Below, in pieces: positions 3,104-33,237 of a stretch of DNA of 41,203 nucleotides; positions within the stretch are counted from its first letter, which is position 1; every line of letters begins with the position of its first letter. The stretch is taken from NCBI GenBank assembly GCA_016841905.1, contig JAENYF010000029.1:1-41203 (forward strand), in the 5' to 3' direction. The stretch is from Desulfoscipio geothermicus (GTDB taxonomy: Bacteria > Bacillota > Desulfotomaculia > Desulfotomaculales > Desulfallaceae). Made by a program: the position numbers and the translations under genes. The notes under the pieces were generated by a model. That model saw nothing but the letters and a program-made list of their open reading frames with translations, was not told the DNA's origin and did not search any database.

Positions 3104-3175
3104 TTGACAGACACAAGGGGACGGTTCTCCTGTGTCATTGATGACACAGGAGAACCGTCCCCTTGTGTCTGTCAA
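3104..3175. repeat. 72-bp perfect palindrome, copy 1
   Basis: The arms 3104-3138 and 3141-3175 are exact 35-nt reverse complements around a 2-nt centre. The core word is GACACAAGGGGACGGTTC. The palindrome overlaps the 3' end of the helicase ORF and supplies its last codons and stop. The same family recurs at 4535-4594 and as one arm at 30456-30480. Such elements are REP/BIME-like or miniature mobile repeats; no transposase for them is visible here. Confidence 0.9.
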
Positions 3176-4503: not shown

Positions 4504-4534
4504 CGGGCATCACCTCCTGCCAAAGCCGCAGCCA

Positions 4535-4594
4535 GACACAAGGGGACGGTTCTCCTGTGTCTTAGAAGACACAGGAGAACCGTCCCCTTGTGTC
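4535..4594. repeat. 60-bp perfect palindrome, copy 2
   Basis: The arms 4535-4563 and 4566-4594 are exact 29-nt complements around a 2-nt centre. The core sequence is the same as copy 1, differing in the centre (TTAGAA instead of ATTGAT) and outer flanks. It lies immediately upstream of the helicase ribosome site, so the two copies bracket the helicase gene. Confidence 0.9.
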
Positions 4595-4825
4595 CCTGTC
4601 ACTCCTGTGCCGATCATCCGTGCCCAAGCATGGCAAACTCTTACGCGCGTATACACGCGTATATGTGCTTATATACCCTTATTACTATATCTACAACATT
4701 TAATAGATGATTTATCGGCACATAGGCACAACCAGGCAGCCAGGCCGGTAAATCAAGGCTTTGCGCTCGTGCTCACGGTGTGCTGACCGGCGCCGAAGGC
4801 ACAATGGGCACGTGCCCAAACCCAC
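4595..4825. other. Gap between VapE and helicase genes; usual VRR-NUC gene missing
   Basis: In comparable Firmicute phage modules a small VRR-NUC nuclease gene often sits here. I find no such ORF in these 231 bp. The stretch contains a near-palindromic TACGCGCGTATACACGCGTA run near 4642 and a perfect 14-bp palindrome TGGGCACGTGCCCA at 4805-4818. An origin or regulator site is possible but unproven. Confidence 0.4.
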
Positions 4826-7159
4826 CTAAGCTTGCTCATCGGCACGGACAAACACTCGTTGTGGACCGTAAAGCGGGAGATTCTTTTTGCCCGTCTTGTT
4901 GCCCGTGAACTTCTCCCAGCCGCCGATTTTGTTCAAGATGCCCTCAATTTCGTAGGAATCGCCCTTTTTGATAGCCTCGCGATGCTTATCAAAGCACTCG
5001 CACCAGATTTCCATGATGCAAACCTGTTGGCGCTGCCGTGTTCCTCTGGGTGTGACCCCGCCAAATTCACCGCCGTTTAGGAAACTCCGGCGGGCGTATA
5101 AGTCCATGCCATCCCAGCCTTCCGGCAGCAAAGTATCGAGGTATTCGGCCACCAGACCTTCCCGGTCGTCGCCTTCCATGGCCTCGCGCTGCCGGGTGAC
5201 GGCTTCCTCGGCTAGATTGCCTTTGAGGAATAGTTCCTCCCCGGCGTGGTAGCGTGCCACGGCCTCAGCCCAGATTTGGTCCACCTCGGTCAGCCCCCAG
5301 GCGCGGTAGTGGCCTTTTCCCGTAACCCGTACCGGCCAAAAACGCCGGTTGCCCGTAATATCACGCAGAAAGCCGCCGTCACTGTTGGTGGTGCCGACAA
5401 TGATGCAGGAGCGGGGATGGCTTTCCACGGTCGCCCCGTAGGACTGGCGGTATTTGTCGTCAGTGCGGGTGATAAAGGATTTCACCGTCTCCACGTCGAT
5501 TTTCTTAATGCCCGCGAGTTCGCCAAGTTCCAGTATCCAGTAACCCTGCAGCTTCTCAGGCGCGGTCTTGTCCTTCATGTCGGAGATGGCCAGCGAATCG
5601 GAGTACCACTGCCCCCCTAACCGGGCAAAGAGCGTGGATTTACCGATACCCTGCGCACCGTTCAGCACGAGGATGGAGTCGAACTTGACACCCGGCCGGT
5701 AAATGCGCGCCACCGCCGCCACCAGCGTTTTCCTGGTTACGGCCCGGACATACGGTGTATCGTCCGCGCCGAGATAGTCGATGAGCAGGGTATCCAGCCG
5801 CTCGGTGCCGTCCCAGGCCAGCCCGGAGAGGTACTCCTTAACGGGATGGTACAGCCGCTCTGCGGAAACCACTCCCAGCAGTGCGTCTTTAAACTTGGTC
5901 GGCGACCAAATGCCGTAGACGCGCTCAAAGTACAGCTTGGCACAGGCCAGGTCGGTGTCGCTCCAGCCAGGTTTTACCTGCGGCCACGGGAGTTCGCCGA
6001 TTACGTCGAGCATGTTCTTGAACTGGTTGAACACAATGGGCTGCAGCTGAGGGTCAAAACGCAGAATAATGGAGATGTTGGTGAGCGTGTCTTTCACCGC
6101 GCCCGATTTATCCAGTTCCAGCCGGCTTTGCCAGTTGTCCTCATCGGCAAAGTCGGTTTGGGCCTGGGCCAGGCGTTCCCCGGCAAGCTGCACCTTTACT
6201 TGCTCATCTCGAACAGCTAAATCAATCATGGCTTTAAAGGAAGCCTTTTTATCGAGGTCACCGAATTTATGCAACCGCACCAGGTCGAAGGCATTGAGCA
6301 GCTTCCCGCAGACCGGGTCGGTGGCGTGGTGGCTGTAAGCGAACTTGCTGTCGTAGAGCACCACGCCCGCCGAGCTGTCGGCGGGGATGTAATCGTAGCG
6401 GCCGGCCATAGCGGAAGGCTCGTACACGTTCGAAAGAAACGCTGCGATGGCCTCCTCTATGGGGTAAGCCCGGCAAAACGCGCCGATTACCCCGCTTTTG
6501 CTATGCGGGTCCTGCTGCCGGGTCAGTCTGCGCTCAAGCACCTCCGACTGCCGTTTGGAGGTCGGCCACAGGGAGGTGTCCCGCCAGTCGGCGTATTGGC
6601 CAAGATACACGTCGGGGTCAAGCAGCCGGCCTTCTTTCTCGTGAAACACAAACTCCCCGTCTGACGACGTGGATGGCCAGTACATCAGCCGCGTGGGTTC
6701 ATAAGTGGTGTCGTCAAACATGTCGATGTCGATTGACCCGGCTACCATACGGCCCAGAGCGGGATACTCGTCCTCACTCACCTCGCGGGCCAGGGGGATG
6801 ATTAGCCTGAAACGCGGGGCCTCGGGTGTATGTTTGTGGGTCGAGTAAATGCAGCAGGCCCAGTCATAGAGGGAGGCGACCTGCTCCCAGATGCCGGGCG
6901 TGGCATAGTCCATATCCAGCGTAAGCATGGAGCGGCAGAGCACATAGCCACGCCTGCGCTTGCCCTCACGCAGGGCCCCGCCCACGAAACCACCGACATC
7001 TTTGATGGCGTCCTGCCGGGATTTGCTCATTTGGCGATATTCCGCTACCGTCTCTGTTGTGCGCTTGGTGGTGCGGGCAATTTTTTTAAAGTCCTCCCAG
7101 GAGAGGTCCTTGTTTTTCCAGCGTTTATCCATCCGGCTATTGCCGACTGCGATTTTCAT
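4826..7159 (-). CDS. VapE-type primase/SF3-like ATPase of phage replication module
   Basis: This 777-aa protein has two parts. The N-terminal third carries archaeo-eukaryotic-primase-like features: MLTLDMDYA (acidic DxD) and YSTHKHTPEAPRFRLIIPL. The C-terminal half is the virulence-associated E (VirE) ATPase: GAQGIGKST (Walker A, around residue 505), then GYWILELGEL, KKIDVETVKSFITRTDDKYR and CIIVGTTN..GFLRDITGNRRFWPV. The protein probably primes and unwinds DNA at the element's origin. The start at 7159 is chosen for AGGAGG about 10 nt upstream; an ORF extension to 7240 is unlikely. It lies downstream of polA-like, DUF2815 and DUF2800 genes, the standard order of this module. It appears intact, in contrast to the broken helicase downstream. 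Confidence 0.88.
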   Translation of the reverse strand: MKIAVGNSRMDKRWKNKDLSWEDFKKIARTTKRTTETVAEYRQMSKSRQDAIKDVGGFVGGALREGKRRRGYVLCRSMLTLDMDYATPGIWEQVASLYDWACCIYSTHKHTPEAPRFRLIIPLAREVSEDEYPALGRMVAGSIDIDMFDDTTYEPTRLMYWPSTSSDGEFVFHEKEGRLLDPDVYLGQYADWRDTSLWPTSKRQSEVLERRLTRQQDPHSKSGVIGAFCRAYPIEEAIAAFLSNVYEPSAMAGRYDYIPADSSAGVVLYDSKFAYSHHATDPVCGKLLNAFDLVRLHKFGDLDKKASFKAMIDLAVRDEQVKVQLAGERLAQAQTDFADEDNWQSRLELDKSGAVKDTLTNISIILRFDPQLQPIVFNQFKNMLDVIGELPWPQVKPGWSDTDLACAKLYFERVYGIWSPTKFKDALLGVVSAERLYHPVKEYLSGLAWDGTERLDTLLIDYLGADDTPYVRAVTRKTLVAAVARIYRPGVKFDSILVLNGAQGIGKSTLFARLGGQWYSDSLAISDMKDKTAPEKLQGYWILELGELAGIKKIDVETVKSFITRTDDKYRQSYGATVESHPRSCIIVGTTNSDGGFLRDITGNRRFWPVRVTGKGHYRAWGLTEVDQIWAEAVARYHAGEELFLKGNLAEEAVTRQREAMEGDDREGLVAEYLDTLLPEGWDGMDLYARRSFLNGGEFGGVTPRGTRQRQQVCIMEIWCECFDKHREAIKKGDSYEIEGILNKIGGWEKFTGNKTGKKNLPLYGPQRVFVRADEQA

Positions 7160-7314
7160 GTACCTTGCACCTCCTGGCAGGCATTTAGCTACCTTCAGTA
7201 TCTTTTTGATTAACTTCCTAACATAGCTATCAAAGATCAATACACTTTGGAGAGCTACTTCCCTGGTCGGTCGCTTTGCCGCCGATTTGTCGGGTAAATA
7301 ATAAATAGCTTAAT

Positions 7315-7372
7315 CTTGCCTCACCCTGTTTACAAGGTGGGGCTTATTTTACGCTTACCTCTTAAATGACAG
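7315..7372 (-). repeat. Dispersed repeat (possible IS-end relic), copy A
   Basis: On the minus strand this reads AGAGGTAAGCGTAAAATAAG followed by CCCCACCTTG, and then AAACAGGGTGAGGCAAG. A related sequence lies at 37226-37285 on the plus strand (ATAGGTGAGCGTAAAAGAAG, CCCCACCTTG). About 50 bp can be aligned by eye. It lies in the gap of about 280 bp between the polymerase and VapE genes, which holds no other gene. It may be the terminus of a lost insertion sequence. Confidence 0.5.
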
Positions 7373-7436
7373 AAAATGTTAACCGTCCATGTTCCGTAGA
7401 CACAACCACCTATGAAATAAAAATTTAATTTTCCTA

Positions 7437-9386
7437 CTAATCTTTTTTATAAAACCGCCGGCACACATACCCGTCGGCACGCAGCAGCAGCCCTTTGGCC
7501 CAGGGCGGAGTCTCGCTCATGCAGCGGCAGACGGCCTCCAGCGCATCGTCACAGGACGCTGCCCTTGCTTCAATGACTACCTCGTCGTGGACGCTCATCA
7601 CGATGGCACAGCCCATACTGTCCAGCCGCCGCATGGCGTAGCAGAGGATGTCGCGGGCAATGGCCTGCACGATGTTCTCCACAAACTTGGGACCGTAAGA
7701 CTCAAGGCGTCCCCATTTTTTCGCGGCGTCTACACCTTCGTAGGTAACCGAATCGCCGCCAAAGCGATTCCGGCCAATTTGCGGTTTTACGTAGGCCAGC
7801 TGCCTGCCGGATGGCAGGGTTATAAACAGCATCCCACTTTGGCAGGAAAAGCGGATGCCGTGGGTCTGTGTCGCGGTTCGTTCTTTAACCGCCTTCATTG
7901 CCGCCTTGTCCACATCCCACCAGAGCCGCACGATTTTGGGATTGGCGGTTCGCCAGGCACTCACCAGCGGCTGGAGTTCCTCCACGGCAACACCCATCTC
8001 CAGCGCGCCCAGCGCCTTTAAGGCACCCACCGAGCCGCCGTACCCGAGAGCAAGTTCCGCAATTTTACCCTTCTGCCGGAGCAGGCTGCCCCTGGTAATT
8101 GACTCCATGGGGACATGGAACATCCGGCCGGCCGACGCTTCGTAAATCTTGCCGTGGGTGGCGAACACCTCATTGCGCCACGTTTCGCCGGCCAGCCAGG
8201 CAATAACACGAGCTTCAATCGCCGAGAAGTCGGCCACCAGAAAAGCGCAGCCCGGCTTGGGCACAAAGGCGGTGCGGATGAGTTCGGACAGCACGCCGGG
8301 GACAGAATCGTAAAGAGCTTCCAGCATGGCGAAGTCGCCGCTTTTGACCAGGCTGCGCGCCTGCTCCAAATCCAGCAGATGGTTTTGGGGCAGGTTTTGC
8401 ACCTGAATCAGCCTGCCCGCCCAGCGCCCGGTCCGGTTGGCACCGTAAAACTGCAAAAGCCCTCTGGCTCTGCCGTCCCGGCAGACGGCGCTATGCATAG
8501 CCGTGTATTTTTTTACGCTGCTCCTGGCCAATGACTGCCGCAGTTCCAGTACCTGTCCGAGGGGTTCCGGCGCGATTTTCAGCAATTCCTTAACCGCCGC
8601 CTTTCCCAGCGTGTCGGTGGCCAGACCGTGATCGGCCAGCCACGCCTTCAGCTGAGTGACTGAGTTCGGATTGTCCAGTGCGGTTATTGACTTCATGCGC
8701 CTGGTGTTTGCAGCCCTCGATTGCTCGTCGCAGCGGATGGCTTCTGTGACCAGCTCCATATCCAGCCGGATGCCCCGGTCGTTGATTTGCTGGTCAAGAA
8801 TATAGCTGCGCCACTCGTCCCCCGGTACGGGGAACTTCCGGAGCCGGGCCTGCAGCGCCAGTTCGGTTTCCACGTCACGGATATTATAGGCTTTAAATTG
8901 CTCCCACTTGTCCGGCGCATCGGCGGGCAGGTTGCGTGTACGGCCGCCGTTGGCCCTGGTGGGCTTGCAGGGCACAGAGAAAAAGCGGACGAGATCTTTG
9001 CCTTCCTTCAACTTCTGCTTGGCTAGCCCGAGCACCGCGCCTGCGCCCTCAAGAGTTAGCGGCAGCCCCAGGTACGCCGCCCAAACCATCGTGCAGCGCC
9101 AAGACTCCGGCTCCAGCCATTGGCCCAGATACCGGGACAGGCAAACCCGCTCAAACTGAGCGTTAAACGCCCATTTGGTGACTGCTTCATCGGTCAAAGC
9201 CAGCTTGAACTCCTCCGGCAATGCTTCACCGCCCGCCAAATCTATGCACCATACCTCCCCGCCGTCGGCCGCATAGCTGACCAGCAGGATCTCAAAATCC
9301 GGTGCTTCAGCGTATTTGTACACGCCGCACCTGGCCAGATCCCGGCTACTGTAGGTTTCAATATCGATACTGAGATTTCTCATCAT
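7437..9386 (-). CDS. Phage-type family A DNA polymerase
   Basis: This 649-aa protein has an N-terminal DEDD 3'-5' exonuclease (SIDIETYSSRDL, exo I; NIRDVETELALQ, exo III region) and a C-terminal Pol I palm. Motif A is FLVADFSAIEARVIAWLAGE, motif B RQKGKIAELALGYGGSVGAL, motif C VMSVHDEVVIEA. It lacks the 5'-nuclease domain of bacterial Pol I and is the length usual for phage enzymes. All catalytic acids are present, so it should be active. Two adjacent ATGs (9386, 9383) follow GGAG; the second has the better spacing. It sits between the DUF2815 gene upstream and the VapE gene downstream and should copy the element's DNA with them. Confidence 0.93.
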   Translation of the reverse strand: MMRNLSIDIETYSSRDLARCGVYKYAEAPDFEILLVSYAADGGEVWCIDLAGGEALPEEFKLALTDEAVTKWAFNAQFERVCLSRYLGQWLEPESWRCTMVWAAYLGLPLTLEGAGAVLGLAKQKLKEGKDLVRFFSVPCKPTRANGGRTRNLPADAPDKWEQFKAYNIRDVETELALQARLRKFPVPGDEWRSYILDQQINDRGIRLDMELVTEAIRCDEQSRAANTRRMKSITALDNPNSVTQLKAWLADHGLATDTLGKAAVKELLKIAPEPLGQVLELRQSLARSSVKKYTAMHSAVCRDGRARGLLQFYGANRTGRWAGRLIQVQNLPQNHLLDLEQARSLVKSGDFAMLEALYDSVPGVLSELIRTAFVPKPGCAFLVADFSAIEARVIAWLAGETWRNEVFATHGKIYEASAGRMFHVPMESITRGSLLRQKGKIAELALGYGGSVGALKALGALEMGVAVEELQPLVSAWRTANPKIVRLWWDVDKAAMKAVKERTATQTHGIRFSCQSGMLFITLPSGRQLAYVKPQIGRNRFGGDSVTYEGVDAAKKWGRLESYGPKFVENIVQAIARDILCYAMRRLDSMGCAIVMSVHDEVVIEARAASCDDALEAVCRCMSETPPWAKGLLLRADGYVCRRFYKKD

Positions 9387-9448
9387 TACTCCATTGCGGA
9401 AAAGAACGACAGGAACCCTACCGCCCTAGCCCAGGTTGTTTTGAACTG

Positions 9449-10006
9449 TTATTCCAGAAAATCTTCACTATCATCATCCGGGGTGAAATCTTCGGCTGCA
9501 CTGCTCCTTACGCCCAACGGCTCGCCGTCGCGGATTTTCTGGATATTGCCCAGCCCGCAGGCGATACCACGTTTGCCGTTGGAGTTAAAAGCATAAAAGT
9601 TCATGCTAACCCTGGCATACACTCCGGAATAAACCTCCGAGCGGCTCGTAATGGGGCAGAGTGCCTGGTCCACGATCTCCGGGGCGGAGTTGCTGTTGGC
9701 ATTGACGAACCAGCTATCCGCATAGGCTTCATCATCCGGACGGTCGATGTCTCCATCACGCAGCGGGAGCTTCAGAGCGTCCCTGCCTGGAATCTTACCG
9801 CCAAATTTACCGCGCCCTTCCTCAATGGCGGCCTCCACGGCAGCATTGATGGCAGCGATGGTCTTGGTGTCGCTCTTGGGGATAATGACACTGACGCTGA
9901 ATTTCTCCGGGCCGCCGTTAATCGATTTCGGTTCCCACACGTTGGCGTAAGACAAACGCACAACACCCGTGACAACCTTGGTAGGACTATTTGCATTATT
10001 TGGCAT
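9449..10006 (-). CDS. DUF2815 family protein (probable phage ssDNA-binding protein)
   Basis: This 185-aa protein shows the family pattern: TGVVRLSYANVWEPKSINGGPEKFSVSVIIPKSDTKTIAAINAAVEAAIEEG, then GRDALKLPLRDGD..DRPDDEAYADSWFVNANSNSAPEIVD and YSGVYARVSMNFYAFNSNGKRGIACGLGNIQKIRDGEPL, with an acidic C-terminal tail (DDDSEDFLE) like that of ssDNA-binding proteins. DUF2815 proteins have an OB-like fold and accompany DUF2800 and family A polymerases in phages. The ATG lies 2 nt after the stop of the DUF2800 gene, with GAGGA upstream inside that gene. It probably coats single-stranded DNA for the polymerase. Confidence 0.9.
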   Translation of the reverse strand: MPNNANSPTKVVTGVVRLSYANVWEPKSINGGPEKFSVSVIIPKSDTKTIAAINAAVEAAIEEGRGKFGGKIPGRDALKLPLRDGDIDRPDDEAYADSWFVNANSNSAPEIVDQALCPITSRSEVYSGVYARVSMNFYAFNSNGKRGIACGLGNIQKIRDGEPLGVRSSAAEDFTPDDDSEDFLE

Positions 10007-10008
10007 TG

Positions 10009-11145
10009 CTACATATCCTCCTTAAAATCATGTTTTGCAGATGTATCGATGGCCTCGCGCTTGTCCGAGAGCGGAACCAGCGCCGGCTTGCCGGGCGGCT
10101 TTTCGATGAGGCCGCCAAGGATTGACTGAAATTTACTCTTACCCATCAGCCGCTCCATGTCGGTGAGGGTAATCAGGCTCCGGCGGTAAATGTCACGGTA
10201 GCCCGCTTCTTGGGCGGCTTTAGCGACGGCCTCTTCACTTAAGTACCTGCGGTTGGAGCGCCCCTCGACAAGTTTAAAGCCGTGCCACTCCTTGCCGTGG
10301 CTGACCGCCGCCTCCAAAGCGTAAGCCTTGATGCCGTTCGCCCATAAGGTTAGCTCATCCAGCCGGGCGAGAATTGACTCGATGTCCTCGTCCGTAAGCA
10401 ACGGCGGCATGGCGAATTCGAAGCGGGCCAGGCTCAGCATTGCCTCCGCCCGGGCACGGCACGGCACCGCCGCGCGGCAAAACCGGCAATGCTCGCCGGG
10501 AACATAGGCACCTTCTCCAGCGAAGGCGAGTGCCGCCGTTGGTTTGAGGATTTCCTCCGCCCACCGGCACAGCTCTTCCTTGCCTACCGTGTGGGTGCCG
10601 ACGTTTTCACGCCGGGGCTGATAAACCGTCATGGACACCGTGCTAATGTCGTAGATGCCGTCGAAGAGTTCCAGCGCACCGAGGGCGTACAGCTTCATTT
10701 GGGGGTTATCCTCCGCTGCCACTAAAACGCCCCGGCCGTACTTGAAGTCAATTATGTGAAGCAGCCCATCCGCGATAATCAAGCAGTCGCCGGTACCGAA
10801 GCCGTCCGGTACATACTTGGAGAAGTCCAGGCGCTGCTCGACCAGCACCACCGGGTCACTGCATTCCTGCTTGGTCCGGGCAATGAGCTCCCGGATAAAC
10901 TCCACATAACCTTCGGAACACGCGTCCATCTCGTCGGAATCGTACTGGGAGACGGGCTTTTTGGAGCGCATCTTCAGCGCCCGGCGCAGCTTATGTTCCG
11001 CGAGGGCGTGTGCGGCAGTGCCCTCGGCTGCATATGACCCGCTGTTGTCCTCAAACTCACGCTCCAGCCGCGCCGACGGGGTGCAGTTCAGCCAACGGTG
11101 TGCGCCGGACGCCGACAGCAGGGCATGCTTTAAACTTGCGCTCAT
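10009..11145 (-). CDS. DUF2800 family PD-(D/E)XK nuclease-like protein
   Basis: This 378-aa protein matches DUF2800, related to Cas4/RecB nucleases. It opens HALLSASGAHRWLNCTPSARLEREFED (family start 'h..lspSga.rWl.Cp.s..le'). The nuclease core is VLVEQRLDFSKYVPDGFGTGDCLIIADGLLHIIDFKYGRGV, with the D...DFK residues. A Cys cluster, GEHCRFCRAAVPCRARAE, could hold a metal or Fe-S centre, as in Cas4. The start overlaps the preceding stop as ATGA (4 bp), indicating coupling. It probably processes DNA ends for recombination with DUF2815. It is intact and of family length. Confidence 0.9.
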   Translation of the reverse strand: MSASLKHALLSASGAHRWLNCTPSARLEREFEDNSGSYAAEGTAAHALAEHKLRRALKMRSKKPVSQYDSDEMDACSEGYVEFIRELIARTKQECSDPVVLVEQRLDFSKYVPDGFGTGDCLIIADGLLHIIDFKYGRGVLVAAEDNPQMKLYALGALELFDGIYDISTVSMTVYQPRRENVGTHTVGKEELCRWAEEILKPTAALAFAGEGAYVPGEHCRFCRAAVPCRARAEAMLSLARFEFAMPPLLTDEDIESILARLDELTLWANGIKAYALEAAVSHGKEWHGFKLVEGRSNRRYLSEEAVAKAAQEAGYRDIYRRSLITLTDMERLMGKSKFQSILGGLIEKPPGKPALVPLSDKREAIDTSAKHDFKEDM

Positions 11146-13556: not shown

Positions 13557-14867
13557 ATGGTAAAACTCAGTAACTCTAAAGATGCGAAGGGAGATATTGA
13601 CTTAAATACATTGTATGAACTTTTTACTTTACGTTATCTTAGTAAAAAAGAAATTAAGTATCGCTTACCTACCGGGATACAAATCAATGACTTTTGGTCC
13701 AAGCTATTGGAATACAGAATGAGTAATGGATACAAAGTACCATTGCTTGACCAAAAAGGAAATTATTTTTGGTTTTGCACTTTGCCTTTTTCAGACAAAT
13801 TAGATCTAATAGATACTAATGCAAAACAAACGGTTAATGATCATATAAATATTATCTCCAAGCAATCTTCTAAACAAGAAAAATTTCTTATCATGGATGC
13901 ATTAATAGATGAAGCATTAAATTCAAGCGTCATAGAAGGTGCTTTTTCAACGAAAAAGAGATCAAAAGAAATCATTGAAAAGGGCATTAAACCTGTTAAC
14001 ATTAGTGAGCAAATGATCTATAACAATTATCAGGCATTAGAATATATAATGGATAATTTACACTATAAAATAAATGATCAGCTCATATTACAAGTTTATA
14101 AAATAATAACGCATAACACGCTGAATGAAGAGGATAAAACGGATGGTTATAGGAATGACAGTGTAATAGTATGGGATTATGCAAATCAAAAAGAAGTTTA
14201 TGAAGGCCCCAAATACACCGAAGTACCTAGAATGATGGCTGATTTAATAGATTTTATTAATAACGAAGATAATTTGCATCCCGTCATCAAAGCATCAATA
14301 ATTCATTTCTATTTTGTTTATGTCCATCCATTTTTTGACGGGAATGGCAGAACCGCTCGTGTCCTCTCTTATATGTATCTGCTACAAAAAGGTTATGACT
14401 TTTTTAGATTTTTTTCAATTTCAACAGTAATAAAGGAACAAAAGAATAAGTATTACAAAGCTATTCAAAGTAGTGAAGACCACTTAGGTGACTTAACATA
14501 TTTTATTGATTTTAACATTAGAATGATACTAGACTCAATTATTAATGTTTTAAGCAGGCTGGGAAAAGAGTTTGGAAAGGTACTAATATTCCATAATCTT
14601 GAGAAAAATGGGATATTATTAACGTTTAGGCAAAAAAGATGCTTGTCATATTTTATTAAAACTGAAAAAAATTATATAACAATTGATGAGTATCAAAAAA
14701 AGTTTAAAATAGCTTATGAAACTGCAAGAAAAGATTTAAACAGCCTTGAAACAATCGGATTATTCAATAAGACAAAGGTTGGTAAAAAATTTATTTATAA
14801 GTTTGTAGGACTGGAAAAGTTAGGCTTGGCGCAATTTTCAACAACAAAAGATACTTGTTCCAAATGA
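13557..14867 (+). CDS. Fic family protein AMP-transferase with autoinhibitory motif
   Basis: This 436-aa protein has the Fic core HPFFDGNGRTARV at about residues 257-269, complete with catalytic His and the DGNGR phosphate loop. Upstream, SSVIEGAF (about residues 122-129) is the S/T-xxx-E-G/N inhibitory helix, so this is a self-inhibited (class II-like) Fic enzyme. Such enzymes transfer AMP or another nucleotide part onto a target side chain. The C-terminus, LTFRQKRCLSYF...YITIDEYQKKFKIAYETARKDLNSLETIGLFNKTKVGKKFIYKF, is a winged helix, suggesting DNA binding or autoregulation. AGGG lies near the ATG. The gene is far more AT-rich than its neighbours and sits next to the CRISPR array, consistent with horizontal transfer. 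The target is unknown. Confidence 0.9.
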   Translation: MVKLSNSKDAKGDIDLNTLYELFTLRYLSKKEIKYRLPTGIQINDFWSKLLEYRMSNGYKVPLLDQKGNYFWFCTLPFSDKLDLIDTNAKQTVNDHINIISKQSSKQEKFLIMDALIDEALNSSVIEGAFSTKKRSKEIIEKGIKPVNISEQMIYNNYQALEYIMDNLHYKINDQLILQVYKIITHNTLNEEDKTDGYRNDSVIVWDYANQKEVYEGPKYTEVPRMMADLIDFINNEDNLHPVIKASIIHFYFVYVHPFFDGNGRTARVLSYMYLLQKGYDFFRFFSISTVIKEQKNKYYKAIQSSEDHLGDLTYFIDFNIRMILDSIINVLSRLGKEFGKVLIFHNLEKNGILLTFRQKRCLSYFIKTEKNYITIDEYQKKFKIAYETARKDLNSLETIGLFNKTKVGKKFIYKFVGLEKLGLAQFSTTKDTCSK

Positions 14868-14874
14868 CGCACAG

Positions 14875-15198
14875 TCATTTCCCATATACCGCCAACACCC
14901 GTCTGGCATATTCGCAAATATTAACTCTCAACCAGTCCGGTTCCGGCACCTCCACCATCTCGCCCCACTGCATGATCCAGGTTTTTAACTCAGCCATACC
15001 GCTAACCTGGAAGGATATCACCACCCCGCCGTCAGGCAGCTCCTCTTCAATAACCTGCGAAGGGTGGTAGATCAGGTTTTTAACCCGGTTCGCCACCGCC
15101 GGGTTAAAGCTTAACCTGACCCGGCAGACTTCCCCGTCATTGATCACGCCCCAGCTGTGGGCCATAAAATCCTTTAAGGAAAAATCTGCGGGATCATA
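14875..15198 (-). pseudogene. WYL-domain regulator, C-terminal fragment cut at CRISPR array
   Basis: The frame from 15198 reads YDPADFSLKDFMAHSWGVIN and continues DGEVCRVRLSFNPAVANRVKNLIYHPSQVIEEELPDGGVVISFQVSGMAELKTWIMQWGEMVEVPEPDWLR..I. This is the end of the WYL domain and its C-terminal WCX extension (F.P.dF.l..fm..sWGvi.dgE...VrL.F.p..a..v....yhPSQ...e..DGg). Full proteins have about 300 residues with an N-terminal HTH and WYL core. Here only about 107 codons remain, and homology ends exactly where the first CRISPR repeat begins (15199); an in-frame TGA follows inside the repeat. An ATG at 15165 exists but has no convincing ribosome site. It converges with the Fic gene, 7 bp away. Confidence 0.85.
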
Positions 15199-18335
<3,137 letters not shown>

Positions 18336-18491
18336 ACTAAGGAATCCCTTATAAAACGGACATTCCTTCAAACCAAAGTATATCATTTTTGTCAGTTTCA
18401 TGCGCAGCAAATTGAGCTTTGTTTTCATAACGACCGAACACGTTAAGGAATTTTTGTTTTGGTCTGCTCAGCGTTGATATTCGCTGCTAAA
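18336..18491 (-). promoter_or_regulatory. CRISPR leader
   Basis: This AT-rich gap of 156 bp between cas2 and the leader-proximal repeat must contain the pre-crRNA promoter and integration signals. On the minus strand a TATACT -10-like box lies at 18377-18382, giving a start about 35-40 bp before the first repeat; no good -35 is evident. The word TAAGGAAT occurs at 18338-18345, touching the repeat, and at 18444-18451, each preceded on the plus strand by CAC plus two bases, a possible recognition motif for the integrase. No gene is supported here. Confidence 0.75.
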
Positions 18492-19381
18492 TTATACTAT
18501 TTTTATCAGTTTCTCGTACAACACATGAGTTGTCAAACAATCCGCCAGACTTCGATGTGATGTGTTTGTTTCTATCTGAAATTTTTCAGCTAAGTTTTTT
18601 AACGAATAGTTTTTTACACCCTGAACATGTTTTTTCGATAACTCCAGCGTATCAATCAGTTCGTTGGCTATCAATCCAACTCCATGTTTGGCGCACGCAG
18701 CATTTAAAAAGCCCATGTCAAAGGACATATTGTGGGCTACCAATGGATACAGTCCGATAAACTCAATGAAAGATTTTAAAGCTGTCACCGGCTCTTGGCC
18801 TTCTTTTTCAATCAACTGGCCGGTAATGCCCGTTAGTCTCTCTATATTTGGCGGAATAACGCTTTGGCTGGCCACCAGCACCTTAAAAGTATCTATCACT
18901 TCGTGTTCGGCTATTTTAACAGCGCCGATTTCAATTATTTCATTTTTCTCCGGCGCTAAACCGGTGGTTTCAATATCGATAACAGCATATGAAGACGGAT
19001 ATTTTGCAGCCGGCCGGCTATTTGTACAGTTAGCCGCTTGCTTAGCCAAGCGGCGTTTGCTGGCCTTACTATAACCCAGCCGGAGTTTGGACAGCTTTTT
19101 AACCCGGGCGGGACTTGGATGCAGGATTAGTTTAATCCCGTCGAAATCGATAGGCTCCCATTCGCTGTTATGTACTTTAAAATCCAGACGCTGCTCATTA
19201 CTGGCGTTAAACACCATTGTAGCCCGTCCGTTCTTGGCAAACTTTTTTACAAAGGCCCAGATATTCTCGCGCACCCGGGCGTTCACCCGGCCTACGAAAA
19301 CACCGGGGTTTATTTCCAACAGCCATTTGGTTAAATCGCCGCGCAACGCTGCCGGGCAATCAGTTAAAGTGATGACAACCA

Positions 19382-19382
<1 letters not shown>
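18492..19382 (-). CDS. cas2: Cas2e fused to DnaQ-like DEDDh exonuclease
   Basis: Residues 1-95 are type I-E Cas2: MVVITLTDCPAALRGDLTKWLLEINPGVFVGRVNARVRENIWAFV..F.KNGRATMVFNASNEQRLDF. A basic linker (about 96-130) leads to a DEDDh exonuclease: AVIDIETTG (D136, E138), VAHNMSFD (D222) and HRSLAD (H276, D281), so all catalytic residues are present. Cas2 pairs with Cas1 to integrate spacers. In Streptococcus thermophilus type I-E an equivalent fused DnaQ domain aids spacer integration, presumably by trimming prespacer 3' ends. GTG at 19382 overlaps the cas1 stop as TAGTG, with GGAGG upstream. It is the last cas gene, adjacent to the leader. Confidence 0.95.
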
Positions 19383-21030
<1,648 letters not shown>

Positions 21031-21033
21031 ATG

Positions 21034-21753
21034 CTACACCTCCAATTCGGCTAGGGGGTCGTGCGCGGTAGGCTGCTCGGCTGGCATACTAAGCGGCACG
21101 GCGTTTAAATCGCTAACCACATTGCGAAAAGCATATTTTCTATGCTCCTGGTTAAAAGAGACCGGATAATCGCGGATTGTATATACGCCAATATCATCTG
21201 CCCCTGCGTCGTATACAATTTCGAGATAAGCAGGATGCCGTTTATTCCTTTGCAATTGTTTTTTATACCAATCTGCAGCTTGCCAGGGTGTAACGGCTAA
21301 ATCTTTCAACGCGTCCAGCAAGCACACCCCTTCTTTAATCCCTAACGATACCGGACCGACGGGCGGGCAGGCGCGACGGCCTAAATACAAAGGGAATACC
21401 GGGTTCTTGACGGCTTGCTCAATTTTTTGCAATAAATCTTCTTCACCTTCCAGACCCACAACGAATAAAGCATCGGCCAGATAATAACGGCTGGAAATAA
21501 ATGACTGCTTATTATCGAAAGTATGGGCGGTATGAAAATCCTTTATCAGCTGTCCTTCTTGATCTATCCGCACGCCATATTTTAAGCTTTGCAAATCACT
21601 GATATCATCGGTGCGGCTTCTGCCCAGGGCTGCAGCTATCATGCCTATAACACCGCTTTTAGTCGGCTCGCGCTCGGTCATTCTTTTATTAAATTTGCTG
21701 GAAGAGCCCCAAGCTTGCAATGGGGCGGCCAGCCTAAGCAATAAAGTACTCAT
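21034..21753 (-). CDS. cas5e: Cas5e Cascade subunit
   Basis: This 239-aa protein begins STLLLRLAAPLQAWGSSSKFNKRMTEREPTKSGVIGMIAAALGRSR, the diagnostic Cas5e/CasD N-terminus (RAMP fold, 'L.L.gPlqaWG....f..R.T...PTkSgv.GliaaalG'). LYLGRRACPPVGPV and HPAYLEI are also conserved. It caps the 5' handle of the crRNA and contacts Cas8e. It lies 1 bp downstream of the cas7e stop and 3 bp upstream of cas6e, so the genes are translated together. Confidence 0.96.
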   Translation of the reverse strand: MSTLLLRLAAPLQAWGSSSKFNKRMTEREPTKSGVIGMIAAALGRSRTDDISDLQSLKYGVRIDQEGQLIKDFHTAHTFDNKQSFISSRYYLADALFVVGLEGEEDLLQKIEQAVKNPVFPLYLGRRACPPVGPVSLGIKEGVCLLDALKDLAVTPWQAADWYKKQLQRNKRHPAYLEIVYDAGADDIGVYTIRDYPVSFNQEHRKYAFRNVVSDLNAVPLSMPAEQPTAHDPLAELEV

Positions 21754-21754
21754 T

Positions 21755-22816
21755 TTAAAACCTCGCTAGCATGTCCTTTTCCAGTGCATCCAACAGTTCC
21801 TTAAATGATACATTTTCCGCACCGGTTAATTTTGCGATGTTTTCTCCAACAGCATATTCTTTTTCGGGCGGGCACGAAAAACTACCATATGTATTCATGG
21901 CATATGCGGCTAGTTTGCTTACTGACTTATTAACAAACCCGTCTTCATTTTGTACCGGCTCCTCAAAAGCACCCACTAAATTAAGGGGCTGATCTTTGCG
22001 GATGGATACCATAACCGCGTCGGGCAAAGTACGATTGGCAAAGGTGTTTTGTTTGCCGGTGGGCATAGATGTTACAAAAGCGCGGGCAAATTCTTTTATT
22101 GTGCGGGCCAAAGCAGCCGGATCCTCAGATAACTGTTTAAACAGTTCATGGGCTGCTACCGTTGCATAGCGATATAAGGTGGCTGAATTAAACTCCACCG
22201 TACCTATCATACCGGCGCCGGCGGAGTCTTCCGGAGACATGTCATCCATGGCGGTGTAATAGTCATATTCGTTGTCTACGCGATGAGTTGATATGCTATG
22301 CGCAACTTGGGATGAAGCGTCGGTATTGAGTGCGGGCTCATCCGCCACCATACGGCCGAATAAGGCTACGTCAATGCCATGATTCTTATTCAGTGCTAAT
22401 TGAGCGTCTTTTTTATTGGGCGCCCCATCCCGCAAAATCAGCTCCGCTAAGTTCTGCGCTTGCTTGGTACTCATAAAAAATAACGCTTTTGCTGCTTTGT
22501 CCTTGGTACTTACTCCCGCTGTGTTGATCACCTTTTCAGCCAAAGATAACGCTTCTTCTTCTGTTTTCGAATCATCTTGAACTCTAATGCATTGAGCTAC
22601 CAAGTCAATAATCTTCTTGGTTCTGACGCCTAATTCCGACTCGTCAAAATTCTCACGGAACATCATTCTCATGGCCCGCTTCCAACTCTGTGATGAAACC
22701 CGAGCCCGCCTCACTCCACCGTACACAGCGGTTTTGGGGCTGCCGGTATCGTCACGGTTCACGCAACTGGGCGGTACGGTTTGAATAACATGAAAATCTA
22801 CAAATGTTTTTTCCAT
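21755..22816 (-). CDS. cas7e: Cas7e Cascade backbone subunit
   Basis: This 353-aa protein begins MEKTFVDFHVIQTVPPSCVNRDDTGSPKTAVYGGVRRARVSSQSWKRAMRMMF, the hallmark of Cas7e/CasC. Later motifs LFGRMVADEPALNTDASSQVAHSISTHRVDNEYDYYTAMDD, GTVEFNSATLYRYATV and FVTSMPTGKQNTFANRTLPD also match. About six copies coat the crRNA spacer in Cascade and pair it with target DNA. The protein is full-length. It is separated by 30 bp from cse2, with AAGGAG just before its start. Confidence 0.97.
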   Translation of the reverse strand: MEKTFVDFHVIQTVPPSCVNRDDTGSPKTAVYGGVRRARVSSQSWKRAMRMMFRENFDESELGVRTKKIIDLVAQCIRVQDDSKTEEEALSLAEKVINTAGVSTKDKAAKALFFMSTKQAQNLAELILRDGAPNKKDAQLALNKNHGIDVALFGRMVADEPALNTDASSQVAHSISTHRVDNEYDYYTAMDDMSPEDSAGAGMIGTVEFNSATLYRYATVAAHELFKQLSEDPAALARTIKEFARAFVTSMPTGKQNTFANRTLPDAVMVSIRKDQPLNLVGAFEEPVQNEDGFVNKSVSKLAAYAMNTYGSFSCPPEKEYAVGENIAKLTGAENVSFKELLDALEKDMLARF

Positions 22817-22846
22817 TTTCTATCTCCTTTACTTGTCTCTAGACCA

Positions 22847-23434
22847 TTATCCTTGTCCATTTTCGGTTTTCTCAGCGCTATCCCTAGCTGAAGCCCAAAA
22901 GTCCTGCCCCCAGCGCAATCTAACCTGATCACGCGCATCAGTAAACTGATATCGATACAAATCTGCGGCGAAACGGGGATAATCCAAGGTAACCGGCGGT
23001 TCCGCCGCCTTAAAGAGCTGCACCAGCCCTCTGGCGTGATGCGCTAATTCGGGTAAATCTTTGGCTGTTGTAACAGCATCAAACCTTCTTTTAAGTGACT
23101 GTTCATTATTCCCGTCGGGAGATTTAAGCTTTCTGGCCGCCGCCCCTAAAGAATTGCCGGCTGCACTCATCGAGGCACTTTTACCTTGCCGGTGCAAAGC
23201 ATATAGGGTTAAAGCGGTATGGATAGCCCATTCTGCAGCTGTGGGTTTGTAGTTATCATCTTTCCCTTTAAACGTGAGCTGTTCCGGCAAATCGCCCAAC
23301 GTAACCTCCCAGATTTCCGGGTTCTCTCCGGGTGTTTTGCCGATGCCCCGGCGCAGTTTAGCCAGCGCCGCTTTTGCCCAAGGGGAATCTTGATCCAAAA
23401 CATTAGTCTTGCTTCGCACAAAAGCGTACACCAT
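22847..23434 (-). CDS. cse2: Cse2 (Cas11-type) small Cascade subunit
   Basis: This 195-aa protein matches Cse2/CasB: WAKAALAKLRRGIGKTPGENPEIWEVTLGDLPEQ, then EWAIHTALTLYALHRQG....SMSAAGNSLGAAARKL, LKRRFDAVTTAKDLPELAHHARGLVQLFKAAEPPVTLDYPRFAADLYRYQF and RVRLRWGQDFW-like DQVRLRWGQDFWAS. It is all-helical and stabilises the R-loop as a dimer in Cascade. It lies 21 bp after cas8e and 30 bp before cas7e on the same strand. Confidence 0.96.
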   Translation of the reverse strand: MVYAFVRSKTNVLDQDSPWAKAALAKLRRGIGKTPGENPEIWEVTLGDLPEQLTFKGKDDNYKPTAAEWAIHTALTLYALHRQGKSASMSAAGNSLGAAARKLKSPDGNNEQSLKRRFDAVTTAKDLPELAHHARGLVQLFKAAEPPVTLDYPRFAADLYRYQFTDARDQVRLRWGQDFWASARDSAEKTENGQG

Positions 23435-23455
23435 CTCAGTTTTATTAATCTACAC

Positions 23456-25060
23456 CTACCCCCTTATTATTTTATTAATGCTCGCTTTAAATTTCAGATA
23501 AGCCTTTGGTGCAGTCTTAATTGTTGTCACACCTCTATCGGCGTCTTTCTTATAGATACCGGTAAAGGCTTTTTCCCCGGCATCTTTAACCAACTGCTCG
23601 CCCTGCTGCAGAATAATTTTTTTCATTTGTTCTAGCCAGGCAAACATTGTTTTATCCATATCATCCGTCTCCGGATTAATCCTGGCCAGCCAATTGCGAA
23701 AGGGGATATCTAAACTAAAGTACGCTTGCTCCCGCGCAGTTGCACTGATGCCCTTTTTGCTCGAAGTATCATCATTGCCTGATGCGGCTGCAAGTTCATA
23801 AGCAAGTGTTCCAAGCTGCCACACACATTGATCAGTTATTTCAAGTACCTTTATAATCTTAGGAATCCAATCGGTACCTATTTTAGTTAGTAAATTAATA
23901 TTCATAGAAATGCTGTCGCTAAACACATCTTCTACAAAAAAATCTTTATCACCATATTTTACACTCGCTATTTGAAATCTAACTTCATTATTTTTAATTA
24001 GAGTCTGCCCTTTTAAATAGGCAATCCAATTCACTACTCCCGGCGGTCTATCCGATTCACTGTTTAAAATTAATGAAGCAAAATCTCTCCAAATTTGTCT
24101 GGCAGAGTTATGCCTTTTTGGTATAAATACGACTTCTCTTTTTTTGCCCTCATTGCGCCATAAAGTCATTTGTTCAGTGAATGCATTTTCTCTTGCGAAC
24201 ACATCGCCGCCTAAAAGCTTGTAACCAATAATGTTACCGCAACCATCTTTTTGTAATAGTATCCTTCTTGATTGGATGGTTAGCAATTCCACAGGGCTAC
24301 TGGGCTGTGTTATGACAACTCTTTCATTGCCATTAACTTCTACACACTCCCAGACTGGAACACCTTTTTCGAAAAGCTCTGTGCTATCTCTAATTAGCAC
24401 AAAATTAAGCATCAGAGTCTCAAATAAGCTTTTCCCACTGGCAAATATTAAGCCAAGTTTACCAAGCCAGCCGGCGCCAACAGACGGCATCCCCTTGCCC
24501 CGCACTGAAGGTTTGCTGGAAGTGTCATCATAAGCATTCAAATAAAGCAGCCACCTGATAGCTTCAGCGTTATCCACATACTTTTTAGCTTTGCCGCTTC
24601 TAACCGGAAAAAGCCTGACTTTATTATTGCTCTCAGATAAATCTCCAACAAATTTGGCTGTTGTATAGGCAGTTCCTTTAGTCAGTCCGGCCACCTGATA
24701 AAAAGGTGTTTCGGGGTGAAATAAATAAAAGCGTTCTTCATAATACCTGAGGTATTGCTCAATGGCCTGATCAAGGAAAACACCCATTTCCCACAGCTGC
24801 TTCCAGCGTTCTAAAGCTTCACCTGTACTTGTAATACCTGCAGCATTGCCCTCCGTATCGACCCTGGTAAAGACGGCATAAAGAATAGCCAGTAATAAGC
24901 GCAGCACGGCTACATCCTGAGTTGGCAGCTCGCCGGCTAATGTCTTGAATTGATGAGCGCGCTTGTAGAAATCCAGTAATGATACTTCTTCTTCTCTGCC
25001 CTGCATATTTATGACTTTTATCCACGGTTCGTCAATTAAATTAAACTCTTTTTCAGTCAT
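23456..25060 (-). CDS. cas8e: Cas8e (Cse1) large Cascade subunit
   Basis: This 534-aa protein has the Cse1/CasA pattern: EFNLIDEPWIKVINMQGREEEVSLLDFYKRAHQFKTLAGELPTQDVAVLRLLLAILYAVF at the N-terminus, FYLFHPETPFYQVAGL, and AIRWLLYLNAYDDTSSKPS. It recognises the PAM and recruits Cas3. The ATG at 25060 has GGAGG 6 nt upstream; a TTG one codon earlier is less likely. It overlaps the cas3 stop by 8 bp. The length is typical of the family. Confidence 0.95.
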   Translation of the reverse strand: MTEKEFNLIDEPWIKVINMQGREEEVSLLDFYKRAHQFKTLAGELPTQDVAVLRLLLAILYAVFTRVDTEGNAAGITSTGEALERWKQLWEMGVFLDQAIEQYLRYYEERFYLFHPETPFYQVAGLTKGTAYTTAKFVGDLSESNNKVRLFPVRSGKAKKYVDNAEAIRWLLYLNAYDDTSSKPSVRGKGMPSVGAGWLGKLGLIFASGKSLFETLMLNFVLIRDSTELFEKGVPVWECVEVNGNERVVITQPSSPVELLTIQSRRILLQKDGCGNIIGYKLLGGDVFARENAFTEQMTLWRNEGKKREVVFIPKRHNSARQIWRDFASLILNSESDRPPGVVNWIAYLKGQTLIKNNEVRFQIASVKYGDKDFFVEDVFSDSISMNINLLTKIGTDWIPKIIKVLEITDQCVWQLGTLAYELAAASGNDDTSSKKGISATAREQAYFSLDIPFRNWLARINPETDDMDKTMFAWLEQMKKIILQQGEQLVKDAGEKAFTGIYKKDADRGVTTIKTAPKAYLKFKASINKIIRG

Positions 25061-27884
25061 CAACGACCTCCATGCTTTCCGTTAATAAACCATATTTCTC
25101 ATCGTACTTTAAGGTATAAATTGTCTGGGCAATGCTTATTTCTGCACAGTAACCTTCATCTAAAACAATAAACAGCTCACCTTTGAGCCAGGATGAATCT
25201 TGCCAGCAGCCCGGGAGTTCAGCAATATTACTTTTTTCCAGCGCATCTATTGTTTTATTGATCATCCACGAGGCGGCAAGACTACGGGGTAAGTTAACTG
25301 TACACGAGGACATCAGCGCCGCCATTTCATCATCAGGCGTATAATCAGTTGGTATTTTTTCTCCTCCTCTGGTTTCCAGCCAAGGCAGCAAATAAAAGCT
25401 GCCATTGCGTTTTTTCTGAATTAAAATGACTTCCAGGGAACTATCAATGTCGCGTACGGTTGCTTCCGCCTTTTTCCCGGTATGATCATTAACGCCGGTA
25501 TCCAGCCACCCGATCAGGGTGCCTGAATTATGACGGAGATCGGGGCTGAAAATTTGAAATACGCTCGCTTTTTGTTCTTTTCCCTTGATCTTTTTTTCCT
25601 GGTCAAGCTTAGCTTTGGCGTATTTTTCCGCCAGTTCGGGCTTAACTTCCACGCCTTGGGGAGCATATGCTTTTTGCACTAATAACGGTATATCGGCAGG
25701 TAAAGAGATTTTTGATTCGAGTAACGCTTGACTATTCATCAACAGATACTCGCCATATACTGCTTTAGCGCCTTTATCAAAACCATCTTCTTTTACTCCG
25801 GTAACAAAGCACAAAGGAGTTTTTAGCTTGTCGGGCCTTAGTCTATCATGCCTGTGCAGACGGCCTATACGCTGTATTAGCAAATCCATAGGACAAATAT
25901 CAGTTAGCAAAACATCAAAATCCACATCAAGAGATTGTTCCATCACCTGCGTACCGACTACTATGACCTTATCCGGTCTTTCTTTGGCCGCAGGCCCAAG
26001 CATATCCCTAACCCTTAACTCCTTGGTTACCCGGTCAGTGCTGATAAACCGCGAATGAAGCAAGTGAACCACGTCTTGGCCAAAATGGTCGGCTAACTGT
26101 TTAGCCAGCATTTGCGCACGTTTAACCGTGTTCATGATAATTCCGGCGCATCCCCCGCTGCTGAGCAGTTCCTCCAGTTTAGCGATCATGTCCTCATCTT
26201 TTAAGTAAGCCACAGTCACATCGTATGAATGTGTGGTAGTCGAAACTTTACACTGTTTCACCTCACCGTCGTCAGAATAAGTAATTATCGGGTAATAATA
26301 ATTAGTTGCCCATGCAGGCAGTTCTGCCTTTTCTGCGGCAACATTCAGCCAGGGAACCGCCCCATGCTGCGGCGTTGAATCGATGCCCAGGTAGGCGTTA
26401 ATTAATTTGAAACGCTTGTCCCCCGGCAAAGTGGCGGAAAGCACAAGCACCGGCACATGATAAGCGCCCAGCCAACGCAAAATTTTAAATAAATATTGAC
26501 TCATGTAAGCATCATAAGCATGGCATTCGTCAATAATCACTACCTTGTTGGCCAATCCTAAATGACGCAAAGCTAAATGCTTTTGCTTAAGGCCACCCAT
26601 CAGCACCTGATCGACAGTGCCCACCACAAAGTCGGATAAGATCCCTTTTTTCCGGCCGTCAAACCAATCATGAACCAATACATTGTCCAATTCCCCGTCT
26701 AGGCCGCCAACGTTGGAGTTATATATGATTTTCTGATATTCTTTATTAAAGCGTGATTTACCATGCGCCAGGAACAAAGAATGCGCTTCTCCGTCAGCAC
26801 TCAATTTAGTTATCCAATTATGTACGCGATTAAAAATACCGTCCGCGGTTGCTTGAGTCGGCAAGGCAAAGAATACTCCGCCTCTGCCGGTTTTTTGCGC
26901 TAACATCTCCGCTGCCGCAAGCGCCGCCTCGGTTTTCCCTGCTCCCATAGGCGCTTCAATAACCATAATCCCCGGCGAAGTCGTTTCCCGTATGATGTCA
27001 ATAACTGCTTCTTGCACCGGTCTGGGATTTAAGCCAAACCTATCCTCGAATAGATCATACATTTCCCAGGCATCCGACGCTTCCCAATAAGGCGGCAGAG
27101 CCAAATCATCCCAGGCATCTTCGACCCGCTGTTCAGAAGATTTCATTTTTAAGTTGGGCTGTAAATACTTAAAGCGATATTCGTCACTAACCAGCCAATC
27201 AACCATAATCACCAACCCGGTCAGCAACGCTTGCCCCGGTATATCAACTTCCATCTTGCTCGTTTCATCAATATCTATTAGGCCGGCCAGTTTAAGAGCG
27301 TACATAAGAAGCTCATCTTGAACCGCCGCCCAGCTCATGTTATTAAATCCTGCGTTGTCGCAATAACCGGGGAAATTATTAAGCTGCATATTAGACGGCG
27401 GTTTGCCGTGATGTCCGCCCAGTATTACCGCACAAGTTCTAGGCAGCCCCTTGCGTTCCAAGATCATTTGCGAAGCTAATGAATGGTGCACGGCATGGGG
27501 TGCAAAATAATCTTTATGCGGCTTTAAAGGTAAACCCGTATCTTTAATCCGGTTAAACAATTGCTCGCCTAAGCCTGGATTTCTAAAAGGCTGCTGTGCC
27601 TGAAAAACAGGGATCGCTTTTCCCACGTCGTGGGCTGCCGCCAAGAAAACGAACAGCTTAAACGACCTTTGCATAGCTAAATCAGACCAGGGATCAAGCC
27701 CATCGTTTAACGAAACACCGCAGCTGATTACCTCCCTTGAACCCGGCGGTAACCAGGCGTACCATATCCTTTTCGCCATTTCCGCCGCGTCCGACATATG
27801 GATATATAGCGGCAACCAGGCATCGCCGCTGTTAACTTTGGTCATTTTAGCCCATAAAGACTTGGCTTGCGCCGATAATTGCAT
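25053..27884 (-). CDS. cas3: Cas3 HD nuclease-helicase
   Basis: This 943-aa protein has an N-terminal HD nuclease (LPLYIHMSDAAEMA; FLAAAHDVGKAIPVFQ around residue 85; HAVHHSLASQMIL; GGHHGKPP) and an SF2 helicase: EAPMGAGKTEAAL (Walker A, about 310), VVIIDECHAYD (DEAH-type box, about 452), VLVLSATLP (motif III), GTQVMEQSLDVDFDVLLTD and QRIGRLHRH (motifs V-VI). A C-terminal accessory domain follows. It degrades target DNA recruited by Cascade. The start at 27884 is chosen because AGGTGA precedes it. It is the first gene of the operon and no frameshift is seen, so interference should work. Confidence 0.97.
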   Translation of the reverse strand: MQLSAQAKSLWAKMTKVNSGDAWLPLYIHMSDAAEMAKRIWYAWLPPGSREVISCGVSLNDGLDPWSDLAMQRSFKLFVFLAAAHDVGKAIPVFQAQQPFRNPGLGEQLFNRIKDTGLPLKPHKDYFAPHAVHHSLASQMILERKGLPRTCAVILGGHHGKPPSNMQLNNFPGYCDNAGFNNMSWAAVQDELLMYALKLAGLIDIDETSKMEVDIPGQALLTGLVIMVDWLVSDEYRFKYLQPNLKMKSSEQRVEDAWDDLALPPYWEASDAWEMYDLFEDRFGLNPRPVQEAVIDIIRETTSPGIMVIEAPMGAGKTEAALAAAEMLAQKTGRGGVFFALPTQATADGIFNRVHNWITKLSADGEAHSLFLAHGKSRFNKEYQKIIYNSNVGGLDGELDNVLVHDWFDGRKKGILSDFVVGTVDQVLMGGLKQKHLALRHLGLANKVVIIDECHAYDAYMSQYLFKILRWLGAYHVPVLVLSATLPGDKRFKLINAYLGIDSTPQHGAVPWLNVAAEKAELPAWATNYYYPIITYSDDGEVKQCKVSTTTHSYDVTVAYLKDEDMIAKLEELLSSGGCAGIIMNTVKRAQMLAKQLADHFGQDVVHLLHSRFISTDRVTKELRVRDMLGPAAKERPDKVIVVGTQVMEQSLDVDFDVLLTDICPMDLLIQRIGRLHRHDRLRPDKLKTPLCFVTGVKEDGFDKGAKAVYGEYLLMNSQALLESKISLPADIPLLVQKAYAPQGVEVKPELAEKYAKAKLDQEKKIKGKEQKASVFQIFSPDLRHNSGTLIGWLDTGVNDHTGKKAEATVRDIDSSLEVILIQKKRNGSFYLLPWLETRGGEKIPTDYTPDDEMAALMSSCTVNLPRSLAASWMINKTIDALEKSNIAELPGCWQDSSWLKGELFIVLDEGYCAEISIAQTIYTLKYDEKYGLLTESMEVVDD

Positions 27885-28025
27885 AATTATCACCTATTTG
27901 TATAATCTTGTTTTATTATAACTTATTTAGCTTAATTTAACAGCAAGATAAATGCCTTGAAGAGCATTCTTATGCTTTTCAAAATGACGGATATCACGAA
28001 TCAATATTTCACGCACTCCAATAAT

Positions 28026-29608: not shown

Positions 29609-29860
29609 TTATCTTTTGTAAGACTCCAACTGCTTCTCAATGGTTTTAATAATTTCCTGTCTTAGAGCATCCGGTTTCTGAACTTCTGCCCCGGCACCGA
29701 ACCCTAAGATCCATTTGGTAAATTTTTTATTGAGCAGCACCATGGTGTTCATAATAAAATGCTCAGATCCATCTTTGTGATACCTTTAGGACCGTGGCAG
29801 TGCTCCTCTAAAATTCTCATCACTTTAAGCAGCCTTTCACGGCTATCCAGACCTATGCGA
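29609..29860 (-). pseudogene. WYL-domain regulator with internal deletion and frameshift
   Basis: Near 29844 the minus strand reads SRERLLKVMRILEEHCHGPK, like the N-terminal winged helix of WYL regulators. At about 29780 the frame changes, and from about 29745 it reads MVLLNKKFTKWILGFGAGAEVQKPDALRQEIIKTIEKQLESYKR to a stop at 29609-29611, the C-terminal end of WYL proteins (W..gfG..aeV..P..Lr..i). About 200 central residues including the WYL core are missing. This is a deletion remnant, not a functional gene. With the fragment beside the CRISPR array it is the second broken WYL gene in the window. Confidence 0.7.
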
Positions 29861-33135: not shown

Positions 33136-33237
33136 CATCACCACGATTTGTTGTTTGAATAACTTTATATTACCATAATTCCAGTACAAGGCGCGACCTA
33201 TTTTTCCCAGTCTCTTACTTTCACCTCATCCCACAGC

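Follow-up and report, generated by a model that had tools for sequence, protein, structure and literature searches.

How does a CRISPR array come to end exactly against the remains of a regulatory gene, and does such a neighbour say anything about the control of the array? The question is raised by a type I-E CRISPR locus whose end repeat stands next to the C-terminal part of a WYL-family gene. The window, by which we mean the whole stretch of DNA that was analysed, is a complete contig (C36, 41,203 bases) of a 91-contig draft genome, for which completeness is estimated at 93.19% and contamination at 4.64%. The array-WYL junction is present in this assembly, and the join described in the first-pass annotation is thereby confirmed. 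No description of such a join was found in the open-licence literature. The features around it, from left to right, are the following.

13557-14867, plus strand: Fic-family gene, the neighbour of the WYL relic on the side away from the array.
14875-15192, minus strand: C-terminal relic of a WYL-WCX regulator, corresponding to residues 233-338 of a 338-aa paralog and open to its own stop.
15193-15198, minus strand: ambiguous join bases, TATGAT on the minus strand; filler, trailer remnant, or WYL codons after codon loss.
15199-15226, minus strand: leader-distal end repeat, of the same sequence as the rest of the array.
15199-18335, minus strand: type I-E CRISPR array of 51 spacers and 52 repeats of 28 nt, transcribed leftwards.
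18336-18491, minus strand: leader of 156 bp, between the array and the cas2-exonuclease gene.
18492-27893, minus strand: type I-E cas operon with cas3, cas8e, cas11e, cas7e, cas5e, cas6e, cas1 and a cas2-RNase_T exonuclease fusion.
27894-27969, no strand assigned: last right-hand stretch in common with the cassette of Sporotomaculum syntrophicum, 76 bp upstream of cas3, 96% identity.

The locus is of type I-E both in content and in layout: cas8e, cas11e, cas7e, cas5e, cas6e, cas3, cas1 and cas2 lie in a single operon, and repeats of 28/29 nt with a period of about 61 nt adjoin cas2 and the leader. The operon runs on the minus strand from cas3 at 27893 to the cas2-exonuclease fusion ending at 18492. 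Together with the leader, which is conserved in S. syntrophicum FB (89% identity over 146 nt), it sets a minus-strand reading of the array, and 15199 is therefore the distal array end.

All 52 repeats are identical over 28 nt and none is decayed. The first-pass annotation was right that the leader-distal repeat is intact, as it matches the other 51. It had also treated this state as an anomaly, a view that the control arrays weaken. According to a passage in PMC8047081, terminal repeats are often altered and the distal end of an array is typically conserved. Controls were drawn from a Cas1 search, as the best 80 of 584 confirmed loci; a scripted scan detected array-like repeats in 63 of them, 72 in all, at least one of which resembles a coding repeat. 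Among them, 33 type I-E arrays lie beside cas1-cas2 (an adjacency partly assigned by hand in short loci) and have their far end 150 bp or more from the contig edge. By script, the end repeat is perfect in 10 of these 33 and has at most one mismatch in 16. Inspection of L104, L161, L164 and L172 revealed an extra truncated repeat past the "perfect" end, with 17-18 of 28 bases matching, which cuts the perfect ends in this set from the best 80 loci to 6 of 33. S. syntrophicum (L099) is among these six; its array in fact ends one unit later, in a repeat interrupted by NN. Perfect end repeats are thus in the minority without being anomalous, and here the whole array is undecayed.

No further copies of the repeat were found elsewhere in the assembly with up to 3 mismatches tolerated. 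Its 17-nt core, searched in 60 genomes including the own one, is present only there and in S. syntrophicum (G004), and the exact repeat has no match in viral contigs. The spacers, compared with the window outside the array and with the fetched loci other than L001-L014, L017 and L067-L096 (largely array regions in overlapping copies), gave a single 16-nt match, in L175, which is taken as chance.

The relic on the other side of the join carries the WCX domain alone (PF25583, E 2.5e-18) in a frame open for 107 codons. It is 79% identical in nucleotides over 318 nt, and 82% in amino acids, to the full-length 338-aa paralog on contig C23, of which residues 1-232 (69%) have no counterpart in the relic. 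With the DNA-binding N-terminal part and the WYL domain absent, it does not have the makeup of a functional regulator. The missing WYL head was not found elsewhere in the 93%-complete genome at E 0.01. The Fic-domain gene at 13557-14867 (plus strand) has a PADLOC SoFic match (E 2.8e-49) and a 67% match in a congener (G005); it ends 7 bases from the stop of the relic.

The six bases between relic and repeat deserve closer description. The first-pass annotation ran the WYL homology in frame to 15198; nucleotide homology with the paralog begins only at 15192. Just before a conserved proline, 12 of 13 aligned intact homologues, taken from the 16 stretches with an intact gene, have Y and the remaining one has F, against D here. 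The 'YD' encoded by 15193-15198 may be junction filler, or the product of a YEY-to-YD codon loss in WYL, or a trailer remnant. In S. syntrophicum, whose assembly has an NN gap within that repeat, the bases past the end repeat read TATAAT against TATGAT here, with 5 of 6 equal. GGATCAT, noted earlier at 15191-15197 as equal to the first seven bases of the repeat, is a real match. Outside the array, the window contains the motif 5 times on its two strands, the join counted, which is about chance frequency; its position exactly at the join is an unlikely accident, at about 1 in 1000 by our own after-the-fact estimate. On the minus strand the join reads ATGATCC, one base, ATGATCC. The proposal that short homology guided the event fails in its simple form, since only a single ATGATCC should survive a deletion between 7-bp copies, and two remain. 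An origin of the array from a repeat-like stretch within the WYL fragment was also considered and rejected, as the best local alignment of the repeat with the fragment lies at the level of 1000 shuffles (p 0.92).

Headless copies of this WYL family are present elsewhere in the genus. S. syntrophicum FB has one intact copy and two C-terminal relics, another congener (G003) has a further relic, and broken WYL copies also occur in G005 and G007. The headless relics are located as follows.

G004, C8:145804-146075 and C3:272284-272537: two headless WYL relics.
G003, C11:354474-354750: one headless WYL relic.

All three resemble the window fragment in being C-terminal only, and differ from it in being cut 41-63 nt further in; their frames are broken. 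Nucleotide identity to the fragment is 87 and 90% for the G004 relics and 79% for the G003 relic. In a tree, the fragment groups with both G004 relics in a single clade with a support of 0.97, and the G003 relic is more distant. No array lies within about 10 kb of any of the three. Loss of the WYL head is thus recurrent in the group and needs no CRISPR, because headless relics occur without an array. Among 16 family genomes, no intact copy is as near to the fragment as the G004 relics are, and the best intact copy is the own paralog (82% aa). Plasmids and phages were rejected as carriers of this WYL copy: 180 plasmid and 9 phage records hold only relatives below 60% identity. A second headless tail lies to the right of the cassette at 29609-29776 on the minus strand (WCX, E 5.6e-8, 55 aa); on visual inspection, it does not seem to resemble the left relic.

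The first-pass annotation had suggested that loss of the WYL gene released control of the CRISPR locus. Such a role has precedents in other systems: sll7009, a WYL regulator, represses a type I-D CRISPR locus, as stated in the relevant passage of PMC4012209, and a passage of PMC9122601 counts CRISPR-Cas as 21 of 210 BrxR-associated defence systems. In this family, a homologue at E 1e-10 or better is present in 32 of 60 genomes, own included. The intact own paralog (G000:C23:34662-35675, 338 aa, Pfam WYL and WCX) differs from the fragment in being full-length, in lying beside an HD/OB-fold gene and in having no array in the 19 kb examined. A scan of 34 WYL loci for array-like repeats, covering 19 kb for L015 and about 1.5 kb per side for most others, returned two that are the window itself with this array and one other with a few repeated k-mers.

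Wider neighbourhoods of 8-20 kb were available for part of the WYL homologues, as 21 stretches that include the own paralog and hold 16 intact and 5 broken copies. This array and the type I-E cas genes of the window are absent from all 21, so that the proposed check for an intact WYL gene beside a type I-E locus turned up none. A CRISPR array of another kind is present in two, L063 (periods of 73-79 bases) and L066 (66-67 bases, with a weak cas3 match of 30% identity), which is mild evidence that members of the family can reside close to CRISPR loci of a different kind. An HD/OB-fold gene, presumably YhaM-like, stands about 0.6 kb or less from the WYL gene in 6 of the 21 stretches, among them that of the own paralog. 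Conversely, the family was detected at E 1e-3 in none of the 80 Cas1 loci (best 80 of 584; 4-21 kb each). In S. syntrophicum, the closest relative, the examined flanks of the cassette hold no WYL gene either. From neither side, therefore, does the family show a conserved association with type I-E arrays or cas genes. On this genomic evidence, a role of the lost WYL gene as controller of the CRISPR locus is not supported.

The S. syntrophicum FB locus (G004:C3, NZ_LSRS01000003.1) has the same 28-nt repeat and cas genes as the window and a conserved leader, and the two cassettes align in two long matches of 86-96% identity. The cas genes are 94-100% identical in nucleotides, with cas6e at 100%, except for the middle of cas8e. 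There, about 840 bases (~23842-24680) are unmatched at the nucleotide level in the operon of S. syntrophicum, and the Cas8e proteins share 63% identity, whereas the six further Cas proteins that were compared are at 94-100%. This suggests replacement or fast change of the core of cas8e, whose product we take to be the PAM-reading subunit. The S. syntrophicum array counts 83 intact repeat cores plus the end repeat broken by NN, compared with 52 repeats here; owing to the gap (L097 from 14735; G004:C3:699234), its end and trailer are uncertain. At a threshold of at least 24 equal bases, none of the 51 spacers of the window is matched in S. syntrophicum, the sole relative found with the same repeat and hence the only one in this comparison.

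Homology between the two cassettes stops at the array end on one side and 76 bp before cas3 on the other. Beyond these points, the genes to the left of the G004 array map in the own genome to contigs C85, C86 and C87 (83-98%), and on the right the outer flank of the window (37.3-41.2 kb) corresponds to G004 contig C4 at 93-96% with changed order. As the flanks do not correspond, the cassette lies in different genomic places in the two species. In the match lists of six congeners, inspected by eye, the sequences that flank the cassette nowhere map side by side as in an empty or ancestral site.

Other contents of the window were also noted. A prophage-type replication module lies at 3135-11145 on the minus strand (SNF2 helicase, VapE-like protein, DNA polymerase A, Enc34 ssDNA-binding protein and DUF2800), with collinear matches of 63-72% in G004:C1 and G005:C1. 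Positions 1-975 match each of the six congeners searched at 69-94% identity, often at more than one site, and are by this pattern probably a mobile element. A pair of HepT-like and nucleotidyltransferase genes at 32271-33189 on the minus strand is likely a toxin-antitoxin module.

Taken together, we consider it reasonably probable that the join is the scar of an illegitimate deletion, or of a deletion-bearing rearrangement, at the trailer end of a normal type I-E array. A WYL paralog next to the array would have lost its first two thirds in such an event, with the WCX tail left as debris. Truncation of the gene and its joining to the array would have been a single event, because WYL homology reaches within 6 bases of the repeat. 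The observed join would result from a templated insertion of small size or, alternatively, from slippage by 3 bases within WYL at a later time. The loss of the N-terminal two thirds proposed in the first-pass annotation survives in this form: the gene is truncated at the join, and the absence of both the WYL head and further repeats from the rest of the assembly fits a deletion. The related headless relics in the genus, the prophage-type module in the left flank, and the different placement of the cassette in S. syntrophicum despite its closely similar leader and cas genes also speak for the scar; against it, the ancestral arrangement appears in no sister genome found and the event is reconstructed from one assembly. 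The WYL copy could also have been headless already, like the G003 and G004 relics, before the array came beside it. That the breakpoint coincides with a complete repeat, and that ATGATCC is present a second time, count against a random break. In a further mechanism, which we regard as very improbable, the end repeat would be a preferred joining point, its last bases (ATGATCC) being copied into the join during relocation of the cassette or deletion of the trailer, so that cassettes would move with a complete repeat as their edge. The array and cas genes would work as before, given that neither acquisition nor interference depends on the distal end.

The main competitor to the deletion scar, clearly less probable than it and yet a possibility to be taken seriously, is that the CRISPR-cas block moved as a unit, from the end repeat to the region upstream of cas3, against a WYL copy truncated then or before. 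The same block at another locus of S. syntrophicum, with homology confined to the stretch from the array end to 76 bp before cas3 and with flanks unlike those of the window, is what such a move predicts, and headless relics do exist without CRISPR. However, every array ends in a repeat, which makes the shared left boundary partly trivial; an unsystematic look noticed no recombinase or target-site duplication at the borders; and a pre-existing relic should be separated from the array by unrelated sequence. An assembly chimaera formed at a repeat is very unlikely. A 91-contig draft with 4.64% estimated contamination makes it conceivable, and the end-repeat hairpin appears hard to assemble, since the assembly of S. 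syntrophicum is interrupted by NN within the corresponding repeat; but the join lies outside any long shared repeat, and the WYL tail has its closest kin in the closest congener, and therefore both sides of the join fit one genus. Hardly any weight falls on insertion of the cassette into an intact WYL gene, another first-pass proposal. A WYL tail does adjoin one cassette end, but at E 0.01 the head is neither to the right of cas3 nor elsewhere in the genome, and the WCX piece at 29609-29776 is another C-terminal tail without a head. We give equally little credence to a GGATCAT-guided deletion that took distal array units together with the WYL head and released the locus from control. The 7-nt match at the join, the sll7009 and BrxR precedents, and the arrays of other kinds in 2 of 21 WYL neighbourhoods favour it; against these stand the two motif copies where one is expected, the intact paralog still in the genome, the 6 of 21 stretches in which an HD/OB-fold gene is the neighbour instead, and the counts of 0 of 21 stretches and 0 of 80 Cas1 loci (best 80 of 584).

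The join is an ordinary rearranged trailer end beside pseudogene debris, and what was first seen there is real but over-read. A WYL fragment in contact with an array is not necessarily a regulator of CRISPR, and neither a truncated neighbour nor a perfect end repeat is more than a weak indication of function. Should the join prove to have been templated by the repeat, it would offer a concrete case of the remodelling of distal array ends and of whole cassettes.
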